Below, one piece after another: positions 20,209 through 24,094 of a stretch of DNA of 48,403 nucleotides. How positions within the stretch are numbered: position 1 is the stretch's first letter; every line of letters starts with the position of its first letter. The stretch is from positions 1-48,403 of the forward strand of contig JACMPA010000020.1 of the NCBI GenBank assembly GCA_014377695.1. The letters run 5' to 3'. The notes below the pieces were generated by a model. That model was not told the DNA's origin and searched no databases. It saw nothing but the letters and a program-made list of their open reading frames with translations. This DNA is from Candidatus Saccharimonadota bacterium. GTDB taxonomy: Bacteria; Patescibacteriota; Saccharimonadia; Saccharimonadales; UBA4665. Both the position numbers and the translations under genes were made by a program.

Positions 20209-20481
20209 ATGTCACACGTTAAAGCAGGCGGCACATCGAAAAATACCCGCGATAGTCCCGGCCAGCGCCTCGGGGTAAAACTATTTGGCGGCCAATCAGT
20301 TAAGAACGGTCAAGTTATCGTTCGTCAGACCGGTTCTAACAAGCGTGGCGGCAAAGGCACCATGGTTAGCCGTAATTACACGATTCATGCAACAATGGAC
20401 GGCATCGTTCAATACACAACCCGTCGGGTTCGCCTCTTCTCAGGCAAGAGCGTCAGCCGTGTCGAAGTCACTGTAGTCTAG
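20209..20481 (+). CDS. rpmA: 50S ribosomal protein L27
   Basis: 90 residues. The N-terminus SHVKAGGTSKNTRDSPGQRLGVKLFGG is the L27 hallmark, followed by GQVIVRQTGSNKRGGKG. The N-terminal tail reaches the peptidyl-transferase centre. The N-terminal cleaved extension known in Firmicutes is absent. The usual partner L21 (rplU) is not adjacent; instead L27 is coupled to a methyltransferase. AGAGGA precedes the ATG by about 10 nt, and a strong terminator follows. Confidence 0.97.
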   Translation: MSHVKAGGTSKNTRDSPGQRLGVKLFGGQSVKNGQVIVRQTGSNKRGGKGTMVSRNYTIHATMDGIVQYTTRRVRLFSGKSVSRVEVTVV

Positions 20482-20503
20482 TCTCTACGAGATTATACAT
20501 ACT

Positions 20504-20531
20504 AAAAAGAGCCGTATTTGCGGCTCTTTTT
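20504..20531. terminator. Intrinsic terminator between rpmA and the Fic-like gene
   Basis: An 11-bp arm AAAAAGAGCCG, a 6-nt loop TATTTG and the exact complement ending in T5, with more T following. The A-run on the left makes it usable from both sides. Confidence 0.9.
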
Positions 20532-20547
20532 CTTTTTAATGAACTCA

Positions 20548-21909
20548 CTAGTTAGTAGTCGCCTTGGGACTACCGAGCCGGTGCCGGGCGATTGCAAGCC
20601 CCGCTTGGCTACTCGATTGCTTCACAGCGATAAAAGGTCCTGGTTTGTAGCTACCTGGTGCCCGATACGGCATAGGTTTGGGTATGACGGTAGCATGTAG
20701 CCCATCTCGTACATCACCTGTTGCATAGTCGTAGAGTATCGGTAATTTGTCTTCGTCAGATGATGATTTTATCAAACGCTTTAAGAACTCCTTGCGCTGG
20801 ACACGATTCTCTTCGATCAGTGCCCGTGCGCCCGCATCATCGATGCCACTCAGTACCGCGTCCACAAGACCTGGCCACTTGGCTTCATCATGTGATCCAT
20901 GCTCATTACGCAGAGCCGACAGCTGCTGCGGATCGGCATGTCGCATGATGTATGCCGGTCCGGCATCGATTGTCTGAAGCACATTGATTGCCATTTGGCG
21001 CAATGCCTCATCCTTGATACCAATGAGCTTTCTAGTCAGAGCCGGCCGATCGTTGTGATTGGGCCAATACGCGCTAGCCCAGTCAAGCGTCCGACGCTGC
21101 TCTGCCGGCAATCGTTCCTGCTGAAACGCCACCCGCTCACGCGAACTAATCGAGACAAACGAGAAGCTACGGCGGGCCTCCTGGGTAAAACCTAAACGCT
21201 TACGCATCGCTTCTTGATCGTACTGGGAGCCGTCATAGCCATAGGCTATTAGCTCGTAGAGTGCTCTAGCGGTGCGTTTGTTGCCATCCTTCATCATCTG
21301 CATGGCGACGAAGCCTTCGGCGGCCACTAAGCCGGCTTCGATCATCTTGCCATCAGCTGCAAATTTCTTGACCGTATCCAGTACCGTACCTAATACCTCG
21401 TCAACGTCTTCAGGATGAACGCCGATGGTGCCAACTTTTCTCTCATCGCCAGTACCGATTCCTAACGTTGTCTCTTTCGTAGAAAGGTTTGATTCACCTG
21501 CTGGAAGCGGGTACAGTGCCTTGTTGATTTCAACCACTAAGGATTTCGCATCCTCGACAGTTGCACGTTTAATAACTTCGGCTCTGACATCGGAGTCAGC
21601 TAACTTTCTATCTTTATCGTAGGCACCAATAAGCTGCAACAGCGCTGCAGCATCTTTAAATTCACCTTCTCCGCCCACGTATGCGTCCCCTTGCTCAAGC
21701 TCGGTTTGGCTCGGTATCCGGTCTATGATCTGACGGTTCAGCCTCAGCGGTGGTACCGACGGTTCAAAATTCGGTATGTCCGTAATCATTACTGAAGGCC
21801 CGGAAAGTGTTGTTTCTGGCACTTGAAGGATCGCAAAATCAGGGACCGAGTCAATGAATCCCGGTGTACTAGGAGGCAATGGCTGAGATGTTGACGTAGT
21901 TTCTGACAT
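20548..21909 (-). CDS. Fic/Doc-fold protein lacking the catalytic histidine
   Basis: 453 residues. The N-terminal 60 residues are rich in proline, serine and threonine. A helical domain contains QMMKDGNKRTARALYEL from residue 204; aligned to the Fic motif HPFx(D/E)GN(G/K)R(T/S)xR it keeps D208, G209, N210, R212 and R215 but has Q204 for the histidine. Upstream KMIEAGLVAAEGFVAM is the helix expected before the motif. A glutamate-containing inhibitory helix was not found. The C-terminal 200 residues are unrecognised. If folded like Fic it may bind a nucleotide without AMPylating. It shares its promoter design with the next gene. Confidence 0.65.
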   Translation of the reverse strand: MSETTSTSQPLPPSTPGFIDSVPDFAILQVPETTLSGPSVMITDIPNFEPSVPPLRLNRQIIDRIPSQTELEQGDAYVGGEGEFKDAAALLQLIGAYDKDRKLADSDVRAEVIKRATVEDAKSLVVEINKALYPLPAGESNLSTKETTLGIGTGDERKVGTIGVHPEDVDEVLGTVLDTVKKFAADGKMIEAGLVAAEGFVAMQMMKDGNKRTARALYELIAYGYDGSQYDQEAMRKRLGFTQEARRSFSFVSISSRERVAFQQERLPAEQRRTLDWASAYWPNHNDRPALTRKLIGIKDEALRQMAINVLQTIDAGPAYIMRHADPQQLSALRNEHGSHDEAKWPGLVDAVLSGIDDAGARALIEENRVQRKEFLKRLIKSSSDEDKLPILYDYATGDVRDGLHATVIPKPMPYRAPGSYKPGPFIAVKQSSSQAGLAIARHRLGSPKATTN

Positions 21910-21932
21910 GTTTGTTTTGATTTAACAATTTT

Positions 21933-21961
21933 ACTGTAGCAAATAATTGCTTATTTGTCAA
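21933..21961 (-). promoter_or_regulatory. Promoter with internal inverted-repeat operator, Fic-like gene
   Basis: On the minus strand -35 TTGACA (21956-21961), 17-bp spacer, -10 TACAGT (21933-21938). An inverted repeat AGCAA-N4-TTGCT (21938-21951) lies between the boxes and touches the -10. The ATG at 21909 follows an A-rich leader of about 20 nt without Shine-Dalgarno. Confidence 0.8.
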
Positions 21962-22069
21962 TTTTCATGCACTGCCCTAGCTTATTTAACGTCATGACGC
22001 CAACCTAATGTGCGAGGCTAGGCCTAACTCACGGAGTGCTATTATAATTTCACACTCTTTTAATTACAT

Positions 22070-23035
22070 TCAAGACAGTTTTTTAATACTAGCTATCTGT
22101 GGCAGTAGTGTGTCTGCCTTATAGTCTCGATCGTCAAGGTAACGCTGCATTTCTAAAATTCGCGAATCAAATCCATAGTCAACCGTAGAATGGGCACCCG
22201 TTGGTGTTGGCCCCTCATAGGGGCTTGTTAAAGCTGGCGTTGAAAAGTATCCAACAACTGGGGCCGGCCTATCAATAGCGTTGTCTTCCTCGTAGACTGT
22301 TACCTGAGAAAAGCCGTCTTGGACCTGATCAGCACGTGCAATGAGTAAATTCACCTCCGTTGTATCAAGCAAATCCAATCGATCATATCTTGATACGAGT
22401 CCGCGCATTGCAGCGAGACTCTCTTTGAGCTGACCACCTGACACTGACCAGTCATCCAAAAGCACAACTTTTGTGTTGGCAGCATCAAGGGCCTGAATTA
22501 TGCCTCTATCTGCATCGGGGTTAACGCCTAAAACTTGAATCCGATCTGCTAAATCTGGGCGGTTTTGGTGCAGATACGACAGAGTCTCGCCTGTTAGTAG
22601 ACCTTGGCTCTTGTCAGCCGAATGTTGGCGAACAAAATAAGCGACCCGACTGCCCGGCCGAGCATCCAGATATTCGACCTGACGATCAGCAAGACCCTTC
22701 ACAGCTTGTTCCCTGTCCGCAACCGACAAGTAGACCGTTTCGTTGGCAAACCGTTTAGTCAGCTCCTGAATAGTTTGACCTTTTGGCGTATGGTCGTCAC
22801 TAGCCGCAGCAGAGACGGTACTAAGGTAATCGAAATAGTTAGTAATGAGCTCTCGTTCAGCAACGGAGCGCTCTGATCCATATGCAAACATATCATAGCG
22901 ATCATACACCGTTATATCTGCCGAAAAGTCGTCATGGCCTAACCGGTCAACTAATGGCAGCAGCTCTGTGCCAAGAACTAATACCTGACGCTCTGGTGAT
23001 GGTGGTTGTGTGTGTTGATCGGGAAATTCTGACAT
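22070..23035 (-). CDS. Phosphoribosyltransferase-like protein of unknown substrate
   Basis: 321 residues, soluble. Residues around 190-205 read VVLLDDWSVSGGQLKESL, matching the PRPP-binding loop of type I phosphoribosyltransferases (hydrophobic strand, two acidic residues, S/T-G-G) but with Q where a threonine is normal. The preceding strand and IQVLGVNPDADRGIIQAL resemble an upstream Rossmann-like unit. The N-terminus (MSEFPDQHTQPPSPERQV) is proline-rich like that of the Fic-like protein. Not recognised as a purine, pyrimidine or competence protein. Has a near-identical promoter to the Fic-like gene. Confidence 0.55.
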   Translation of the reverse strand: MSEFPDQHTQPPSPERQVLVLGTELLPLVDRLGHDDFSADITVYDRYDMFAYGSERSVAERELITNYFDYLSTVSAAASDDHTPKGQTIQELTKRFANETVYLSVADREQAVKGLADRQVEYLDARPGSRVAYFVRQHSADKSQGLLTGETLSYLHQNRPDLADRIQVLGVNPDADRGIIQALDAANTKVVLLDDWSVSGGQLKESLAAMRGLVSRYDRLDLLDTTEVNLLIARADQVQDGFSQVTVYEEDNAIDRPAPVVGYFSTPALTSPYEGPTPTGAHSTVDYGFDSRILEMQRYLDDRDYKADTLLPQIASIKKLS

Positions 23036-23059
23036 GTTTATTTTTAGATTTATAACTGA

Positions 23060-23088
23060 ATTATAGCAAATTGTTGCTGTTTTGTCAA
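23060..23088 (-). promoter_or_regulatory. Promoter with the same internal operator, PRTase-like gene
   Basis: Minus strand -35 TTGACA (23083-23088), 17-bp spacer, -10 TATAAT (23060-23065), and the inverted repeat AGCAA-N4-TTGCT (23065-23078) at exactly the same place as in the Fic-like promoter. Confidence 0.85.
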
Positions 23089-23090
23089 TG

Positions 23091-23624
23091 TTACGTGTGA
23101 GGAGTAGTACGAACTATCGATCTGGTTTCGCTTAAGGCCACCCGTAAGTCAGGTAACAGCCCTCTATATTGGACGGCATCCATGACTTCAGGGTTATGAC
23201 TAATGGAACTGATTGTATCTACAAGCGCACGGGTTAGCCCGGTTACTTCGAGGGTGCTGACCCAGCCCGTCCCAAGCTATCTATTAAGCGTGTTAGCGTA
23301 CCTGTCGACTGCTGGCATACGTTGACTAGCAACAAATCGGTGTAAGTCTAGCTCGACTACGAAAGAGTCTTGCTCAGCGATATCGCCCAGAATAGTCAGT
23401 GGCAATGTTATCGGAACAACCTGGGCAACTAAACTTTTCGTTGAGCTACCAGAACTATCTAGTGCATTCATGAATGAATATGCGTTCCTGAATGAAAGGT
23501 CTGCTACTTGAGTAGCCGCGATTATTTGCTTTTTGGATGATGAGAATTTATGCACATCAGACCTGGGTGATGATATATCTAAAAAGGGTAAAACAGTTGC
23601 TTGAGTAGCATGGATAACAGACAT
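23091..23624 (-). pseudogene. Unknown ORF interrupted by a single in-frame TAG
   Basis: From ATG at 23624 a 115-residue frame stops at TAG (23277-23279), yet the same frame then stays open for 61 further codons (starts LGTGWVSTLEV, includes VTGLTRALVDTISSISHNPEV) to TAA at 23091. The downstream part has good protein-like composition, which suggests one ancestral gene of 177 codons with a nonsense change, a sequencing variant, or read-through. The first half contains VAQVVPITLPLTILGD; no family is recognised. No Shine-Dalgarno precedes the ATG. It ends just ahead of the promoter of the PRTase-like gene. Confidence 0.5.
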
Positions 23625-23668
23625 GAAGTCTATCGTGGCATATAATTGTTTATAAGTAGCTGTCTTTA

Positions 23669-24094
23669 TTAAACGCCGAGGTGGTGCTTAACGCGGTCGA
23701 TGACGTCAGCAATGACTACCTGTGATTTAACAAGGTAATCGTCCACGCCGAGCGATTTGGCACGCTCTTTGTCACTTTCCTGGCTAAGAGCCGTCAGCAT
23801 CACTATCTTGAGGTTGGCTGTCTCTGGGGTGTTACGCAGAATGTCGAGTACGTCGAAGCCACTCACCTTCGGCATCATCACGTCGAGAATAATCAGGTCT
23901 GGTTTGTAGCTAAGGGCGGCGGCCAACGCTTCTTCACCGTTCGCAACGCGACGAACGTCGAAGCCTTCGGACTGGAGTCGGGTTACATAAACGTTCGCGA
24001 GGGCATTGTCGTCTTCAACTAATAGTAAGCGCTTGGCATGGTCGGGAGCGGTATAACTGGTAGCTGGGGTTTGGTTATTTGTTGGTTCACTCAT
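23669..24094 (-). CDS. Stand-alone response-regulator receiver domain
   Basis: 141 residues. After a 20-residue polar N-tail, the CheY fold is complete: E27-D28-D29, phosphoacceptor D71 (LIILDVMMPK), T101 (VMLTA) and K123 (YLVKS). There is no output domain, so signalling would be by protein-protein contact; such receivers are common near type IV pilus genes in this lineage. In contrast to the receiver at 14146, this one keeps every catalytic residue. No kinase is adjacent. Confidence 0.95.
   Translation of the reverse strand: MSEPTNNQTPATSYTAPDHAKRLLLVEDDNALANVYVTRLQSEGFDVRRVANGEEALAAALSYKPDLIILDVMMPKVSGFDVLDILRNTPETANLKIVMLTALSQESDKERAKSLGVDDYLVKSQVVIADVIDRVKHHLGV

Follow-up and report, generated by a model that had tools for sequence, protein, structure and literature searches.

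The operator of XRE repressors (lambda/434 Cro-C1-type) offers the best mechanistic analogy for the promoters described here. In those systems the bound repressor excludes RNA polymerase from the region between the -35 and -10 elements, and it is there that both of our promoters carry a 14-bp palindrome. Three clostridial XRE genes (L092, L096, L114) share the spacer sequence, i.e., TAGCAA-N4-TTGCTA, in their own promoters, at the same position and 23-26 nt upstream. Unlike the XRE systems, however, the present locus has no adjacent repressor gene, the targets are scattered accessory genes, and the palindrome is a candidate operator. With regard to gene arrangement, the closest counterparts are chromosomal accessory hot spots for integration or defence, which likewise combine conserved borders with variable content; the variable genes here differ in keeping one promoter class and one orientation. 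In Saccharibacteria, the type IV secretion system is essential, and its use for host interaction or effectors is speculative (PMC10633639). The accessory proteins described below look effector-like, which recalls the type IV secretion effectors proposed for Saccharibacteria, but they showed no secretion signal. Literature searches linking Saccharibacteria with the Fic domain, the FHA domain, or with promoter, operator, repressor or effector found no reports among the papers covered.

Two promoters and their genes in the window

The DNA analyzed was a stretch of 48,403 nucleotides (hereafter, the window) from Candidatus Saccharimonadota bacterium (Saccharimonadales, UBA4665; assembly GCA_014377695.1, contig JACMPA010000020.1, positions 1-48,403), with the following features of interest:

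20209..20481, plus strand: rpmA (ribosomal protein bL27; Pfam E=2e-22), the right-hand border of the hot spot viewed from the response regulator
20482..23668: accessory hot spot, from rpmA to the response regulator (locus comparison)
20548..21909, minus strand: Fic-like protein P0001, 453 aa (Pfam Fic, alignment with four relatives, profile, model)
21933..21961, minus strand: promoter of the Fic-like gene, TTGACAAATAAGCAATTATTTGCTACAGT, with -35 at 21956-21961, -10 TACAGT at 21933-21938 and an extended -10 TG (sequence, promoter scan, genome scan)
21938..21951: palindrome AGCAA-N4-TTGCT, candidate operator in the spacer of the Fic-like gene promoter (left arm enriched against a control across the order)
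22070..23035, minus strand: PRTase-like protein P0002, 321 aa, with the motif LLDDWSxSGxQ (alignment, AlphaFold model, fold search)
23060..23088, minus strand: promoter of the PRTase-like gene, TTGACAAAACAGCAACAATTTGCTATAAT, with -35 at 23083-23088 and -10 TATAAT at 23060-23065 (sequence, promoter scan, genome scan)
23065..23078: palindrome AGCAA-N4-TTGCT, candidate operator in the spacer of the PRTase-like gene promoter (left arm enriched against a control across the order)
23669..24094, minus strand: single-domain response regulator P0004, the other border of the hot spot (Pfam E=5e-24)

An earlier note on this DNA had claimed that the two genes have near-identical promoters (TTGACA, a 17-bp spacer and a -10) holding AGCAA-N4-TTGCT at an identical position, and the sequence agrees on both counts. 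On the minus strand, the first site (21961..21933) reads TTGACA AATA AGCAA TTAT TTGCT ACAGT and the second (23088..23060) reads TTGACA AAAC AGCAA CAAT TTGCT ATAAT, i.e., both have a perfect -35 and a 17-bp spacer, and 23 of their 29 bases are identical. An operator-type palindrome overlaps the core promoter at both sites, sharing a single base with the -10, the first of that element on the reading strand. The 5.5 kb around the two promoters contain ten promoter-like sites, of which one alone, that of the PRTase-like gene, matched at 12/12 positions. The leaders, measured from the end of the -10 to the ATG, are 23 and 24 nt long for the Fic-like and PRTase-like genes, respectively, and are A-rich and devoid of a Shine-Dalgarno sequence, as had also been noted. 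The latter property was rejected as a special trait, with a Shine-Dalgarno sequence present in just eight of the 23 window genes checked. The interval from the PRTase-like gene to the response regulator contains a 115-aa open reading frame (23277-23624, minus strand), which has no Pfam match and no promoter of this kind and may not be a gene.

Against the Pfam Fic model (PF02661), P0001 scored 21.3 bits (E=5e-4) as a single protein, below the cut-off of 24, and 24.1 bits in a six-frame search, just above it. A profile of the Fic family, built with five relatives, matched FICD structures (3e-8) and also SoFic, and P0001 is, by profile, a Fic-fold protein. In this it resembles Fic/Doc (Fido) proteins, as do five other members of the accessory set that have a Fic domain. 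It differs from them in its degenerate motif, QMMKDGNKR, which has Gln at the position of the catalytic His and fails the pattern HxFx(D/E)GNxR; P0001 is probably not an AMP transferase of the standard kind. The four aligned relatives retain the motif His. P0001 also has long disordered ends, the N-terminal one bearing three copies of the sequence [FLIVM]I[TD]x[VI]P, and was modelled with low confidence (mean pLDDT 55). No full homolog was found in 99 relatives. The proposition that all Fic genes carry the promoter was rejected, since ordinary Fic loci of the relatives lack it.

In P0002, the sequence DDW..SG.Q was invariant in an alignment of nine relatives and resembles a PRPP loop. Its AlphaFold model (mean pLDDT 71) was used in a fold search with Foldseek, which returned PDB matches that included HGPRT-type phosphoribosyltransferases at E values of 5e-4 to 2e-3, with low TM-scores. 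These features recall PRTase-CE (PF24390) and type I phosphoribosyltransferases, from which P0002 is set apart by a Pfam match far under the cut-off (12 vs 27 bits) and by those low TM-scores; a sequence search of the PDB with the P0002 family gave no match. Distant relatives of P0002 occur in seven other genomes, with one more in its own genome, and Fic queries found no match at any locus holding a P0002 relative.

Occurrence of the composite element across the order

Within the 0.82-Mb genome, the bare palindrome occurs at six places, four of them within open reading frames, and full matches to the composite of promoter and palindrome are confined to the two window sites. When up to three mismatches were allowed in the 20-base composite, four matches were obtained genome-wide, i.e., the two window sites and the weaker C20:14768 and C26:7269, as compared with none for a reversed-pattern control. 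Shuffled versions of the window gave 0.09 composites against the two observed. In a scan of 393 genomes from the order, of the kind that the earlier note had proposed, exact matches to the composite were found at 23 sites in 20 genomes and 16 genera, whereas a dinucleotide-matched control with a scrambled left arm (AAGCA, a single control arm) was found at one site in the same genomes. The palindrome type is sporadic, being present in 5% of genomes. One of the 23 sites (G197) is apparently coding sequence upstream of a GreA-like gene. Composite matches upstream of GreA-like genes in L074, L116 and L129 were discarded as false positives, being conserved coding sequence that ends in LTREQLLAKLS or similar.

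The two arms of the palindrome differ in what they convey. TTGACA-N13-TTGCTA was present in 84 of the 99 relatives, with TTTGCTA commonly serving as an extended -10; one would therefore expect the right arm, TTGCT(A), as part of this very common element, and only the left arm carries information. When the spacers of the listed TTGACA-N13-TTGCTA promoters were shuffled, a mean of 0.19 sites was obtained (maximum of three in 5000 shuffles) against four observed outside the window; a column-wise expectation for the same promoters was higher, at about one to two sites. The base preceding AGCAA, which was free in the search, was T in 16 of 24 Saccharibacteria sites of GTDB contigs, which extends the element to TAGCAA-N4-TTGCTA. 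A survey of 84,980 species yielded 75 stretches with the composite and, by eye, these were enriched in Saccharibacteria and other Patescibacteria. Scans of viral contigs gave 32 and five matches, with no clear tie to the accessory set; six viral contigs (L133, L135, L138, L144, L149, L150) have in common TTGACACAATAGCAAATCCTTGCTATAAT before a gene that is, by eye, metallophosphatase-like.

Could the two neighbouring promoters simply resemble one another by chance? The extended -10 already supplies the right arm, which makes such a coincidence easier. Yet the composite is scarce genome-wide, exceeds its shuffled expectation in the window and outnumbers its control across the order, and it is this order-wide enrichment that excludes chance resemblance, which we regard as extremely improbable. 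The left arm AGCAA is a real, evolutionarily recurrent element, and the same cis-element stands at the promoters of several separate genes above chance, as in a regulon. Random occurrence of the motif at many unrelated promoters had been named as an argument against this interpretation, and it applies by half. The downstream genes are indeed unrelated in sequence, but they belong to one category, i.e., lineage-specific accessory genes at a few fixed loci, rather than to random promoters.

A variable gap between the response regulator gene and rpmA

The region beyond rpmA was surveyed in 81 genomes, comprising 80 relatives and the window. The response regulator and rpmA were kept together in 75 of these, separated by a gap of up to 600 bp in 29 genomes and of more than 600 bp in 46. 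Most of the larger gaps are filled by between one and three genes, which with few exceptions share the strand of the response regulator; their contents diverge (Fic, FHA, PP2C, or no known domain), and a match to the promoter class was found in 35 of the 46. Genes preceded by the palindrome motif occupy this gap in the window as well as in L059, L069, L073, L082, L101, L104, L122 and L130. A second fixed address lies downstream of a MutM-like gene (L063, L127), and a third beside rpsT and a trehalose-phosphate-synthase-like gene (L060 and, in the window's own genome, C20:14768). At C20:14768 the left arm is degenerate (GACAA), and the gene behind this promoter encodes a protein of 292 aa whose transglutaminase-like match is weak and falls short of the cut-off (E=0.03).

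A TTGA(C)-TGnTA promoter was present near the start of 43 of 83 hot-spot genes, and all 43 had an identical 29-bp geometry, although 27-30 bp had been allowed. Roughly half of the hot-spot genes lack a promoter of this kind directly upstream, and some of these are probably the second genes of operons. Most hot-spot promoters have a second spacer type, AAGCTTATGCTA, instead of the palindrome, with the consensus TTGAC(A/T)NNNNANNAAGCTTATGCTANTAT; AAGCTTATGCTA has no clear inverted repeat. Single promoters carry AGCAT-N4-ATGCT or GCAC-N4-GTGC. Near the Fic genes of L207 and L215 we observed GTATCAGATTATCAATATTATGATACAAT and a close variant, with a palindrome, TATCA-N6-TGATA, of similar design and a different half-site.

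A matrix built from the hot-spot sites gave 48 matches within the gaps at scores over 20, each of them oriented with the genes, compared with one match outside the gaps in four times as many positions; the matrix was trained on gap sites, so the in-gap count is partly circular, which does not apply to the outside count. In 400 kb of genome G001 that had been held out from the matrix, five matches exceeded 20 bits, including two at hot-spot genes and two at a divergent accessory pair (L341, 6189 on the minus strand and 6365 on the plus strand), the genes of which share one intergenic region with two promoters of the class. A reversed-sequence control gave one match at a laxer cut-off of 12. One promoter of the divergent pair is of the TAGCAA-N4-TTGCTA type, such that G001 carries both the AGCAA-N4-TTGCT and AAGCTTATGCTA types, and one protein of the pair resembles, by eye, a hot-spot protein of the same genome. 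Given the conserved gene order, the accessory genes in the gap and the exact promoter spacing at 43 of 83 genes, we probably have here a regulon of accessory genes that sits at a conserved hot spot.

The accessory proteins and their control

In Saccharibacteria, the genes downstream of the composite mostly encode proteins with no known function, of 70-720 aa. Pfam searches on the products of motif genes identified Fic in L060 and L063 and a transglutaminase-like core in L127, with most giving no match; in L082, the gene following the motif gene encodes a Fic relative of P0001 (2.7e-9). A set of 107 accessory proteins fell into 72 clusters, 59 of them singletons, with an FHA-like cluster the largest. 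Thirteen of the proteins matched an FHA-like profile of our own construction and six matched Fic, while one (L269) also had PP2C. The proteins are acidic and poor in cysteine (0.2% vs 0.7% in flanking open reading frames), with proline at 8.2% of their first 50 residues as compared with 3.3% in flanking frames. The sequence [FLIVM]I[TD]x[VI]P, of which 16 copies were present in 11 of the 107 proteins against one in 272 flanking frames, had been spotted by eye in the same set, and its enrichment is therefore partly post hoc. Positive charge at the C-terminus, a signal for type IV secretion, was not above that of flanking frames, and the accessory proteins gave no signal peptide or other evidence of secretion. 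In searches with anti-phage defence models (PADLOC), P0001 and P0002 had no match, and other Fic members matched SoFic or candidate Fic models weakly to moderately.

When open reading frames of the window and of the screened loci were searched with an XRE profile, the only match was one core HTH-HAD fusion; a linked or autoregulated XRE gene was seen only at the clostridial loci named above, which are unrelated. HTH_3 proteins were present in all but one of the 99 relatives, and none could be linked to the sites. Two observations were made in passing on proteins of this type. In the window's own genome, L185 1851-3380 (C1) encodes an N-terminal XRE-type HTH fused to a part that is, by eye, MurA-like (UDP-GlcNAc enolpyruvyl transferase); most of the 99 relatives have an HTH_3 match in the range of about 507-558 aa, and such a protein appears to be conserved across the order. 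L090 866-1720 (plus strand) encodes a 284-aa protein in which an XRE-type HTH is fused to a part that is, by eye, HAD hydrolase-like, and many relatives have HTH_3 proteins of about this size (280-300 aa).

The earlier note had placed both genes under one repressor and concluded that their products act together. Common control is plausible, because both promoters share a real, recurrent composite element, and a repressor is likely to lie behind the sites. The notion of one repressor fared less well: no regulator was found beside the sites, and a single operator and repressor would not cover all of the promoters, because the palindrome is sporadic and coexists with the AAGCTTATGCTA type in G001. 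The step from common control to joint action was not borne out, given that full homologs of P0001 are absent from the 99 relatives, those of P0002 are distant and confined to seven other genomes, and the pair is not conserved. Shared control is in any case uninformative on a two-protein system, because in relatives dozens of unrelated proteins are encoded behind promoters of this type, typically one to three in a genome, and the element there drives about 70 unrelated protein clusters.

We propose that a dedicated promoter class of Saccharimonadales (Patescibacteria) would drive accessory genes that are specific to individual lineages and confined to a few fixed places on the chromosome, chief among them the gap between the response regulator gene and rpmA. 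What was observed is a fixed-geometry promoter of the sigma-70 type with an extended -10 and a conserved extra element in its 17-bp spacer, namely (T)AGCAA-N4-TTGCT(A) in the window and about 20 other genomes, and AAGCTTATGCTA in most other hot-spot genes. The spacer would be bound by a protein acting in trans, for which a dimeric XRE-type repressor is the likeliest candidate, and RNA polymerase would be blocked; the scattered accessory genes would thereby be switched together. Less certainly, their products (Fic, FHA, PP2C, PRTase-like and transglutaminase-like proteins, and mostly proteins of no known family) may serve an epibiotic lifestyle as effectors or interaction proteins particular to each lineage, and would be replaced or rewritten fast while the promoter persists. 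Taken as a whole, i.e., promoter class, spacer-bound regulator and accessory genes at fixed sites, we hold this explanation to be reasonably probable.

Besides chance resemblance, it has to be weighed against three others. The element might involve no regulator at all and represent a strong core-promoter variant, combining an extended -10 with a favoured spacer, that suits accessory genes and generates the palindrome as a by-product. Promoter strength depends on spacer sequence, TTGACA-N13-TTGCTA promoters are common in the relatives, and AAGCTTATGCTA, not being clearly palindromic, could reflect a preference of sigma factor or polymerase rather than an operator. On the other hand, no known sigma-70 contact covers the AGCAA arm, which is some 20-fold more frequent than a control of equal dinucleotide content, and the sites serve accessory rather than highly expressed core genes; we consider this account unlikely.

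Alternatively, promoter and gene might move as a unit, with the shared promoter a mark of recent common transfer and not of regulation. Such mobile cassettes would fit the sporadic presence of the element, the occurrence of unrelated genes behind similar promoters at the same site, and the paralogy of L117 and its adjacent gene. We nevertheless find them distinctly unlikely: the sites were not seen to be accompanied by repeats, an integrase or a relaxase, the 29-mer keeps its geometry where leaders and flanks diverge, and the genes remain at a few fixed loci with conserved borders. The least probable of these three is a specific two-gene system (toxin-antitoxin or defence) formed by the Fic-like and PRTase-like proteins under one autorepressor. 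The genes are adjacent and have the same promoter, and some Fic domains of the regulon match defence models, as described above. Nevertheless, neither P0001 nor P0002 has such a match or, by Pfam, a DNA-binding domain, P0001 is without the catalytic His, and the pair is not conserved, and we judge such a system very unlikely.

The earlier observation of two matching promoters is confirmed and has a wider reach than was supposed. The presence of this kind of promoter beside rpmA in dozens of genomes points to a set of accessory genes that would be switchable and had not been described before, and for the products of which an effector role is plausible. In its most specific form, which we offer tentatively and consider rather doubtful, the set would be a dedicated effector regulon of Saccharimonadales, in which one promoter-embedded switch governs fast-evolving proteins at fixed sites, with [FLIVM]I[TD]x[VI]P as a common tag in disordered tails for delivery or for binding of a common partner, and with the host bacterium as the target. 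Saccharibacteria depend on other bacteria, and the proteins that they would direct at their hosts mostly lack a known domain, which makes them difficult to recognise. With a promoter signature and a chromosomal address, candidate genes could be listed by regulation and position rather than by homology, and the way would open to a regulator testable in cultivated, genetically tractable strains.
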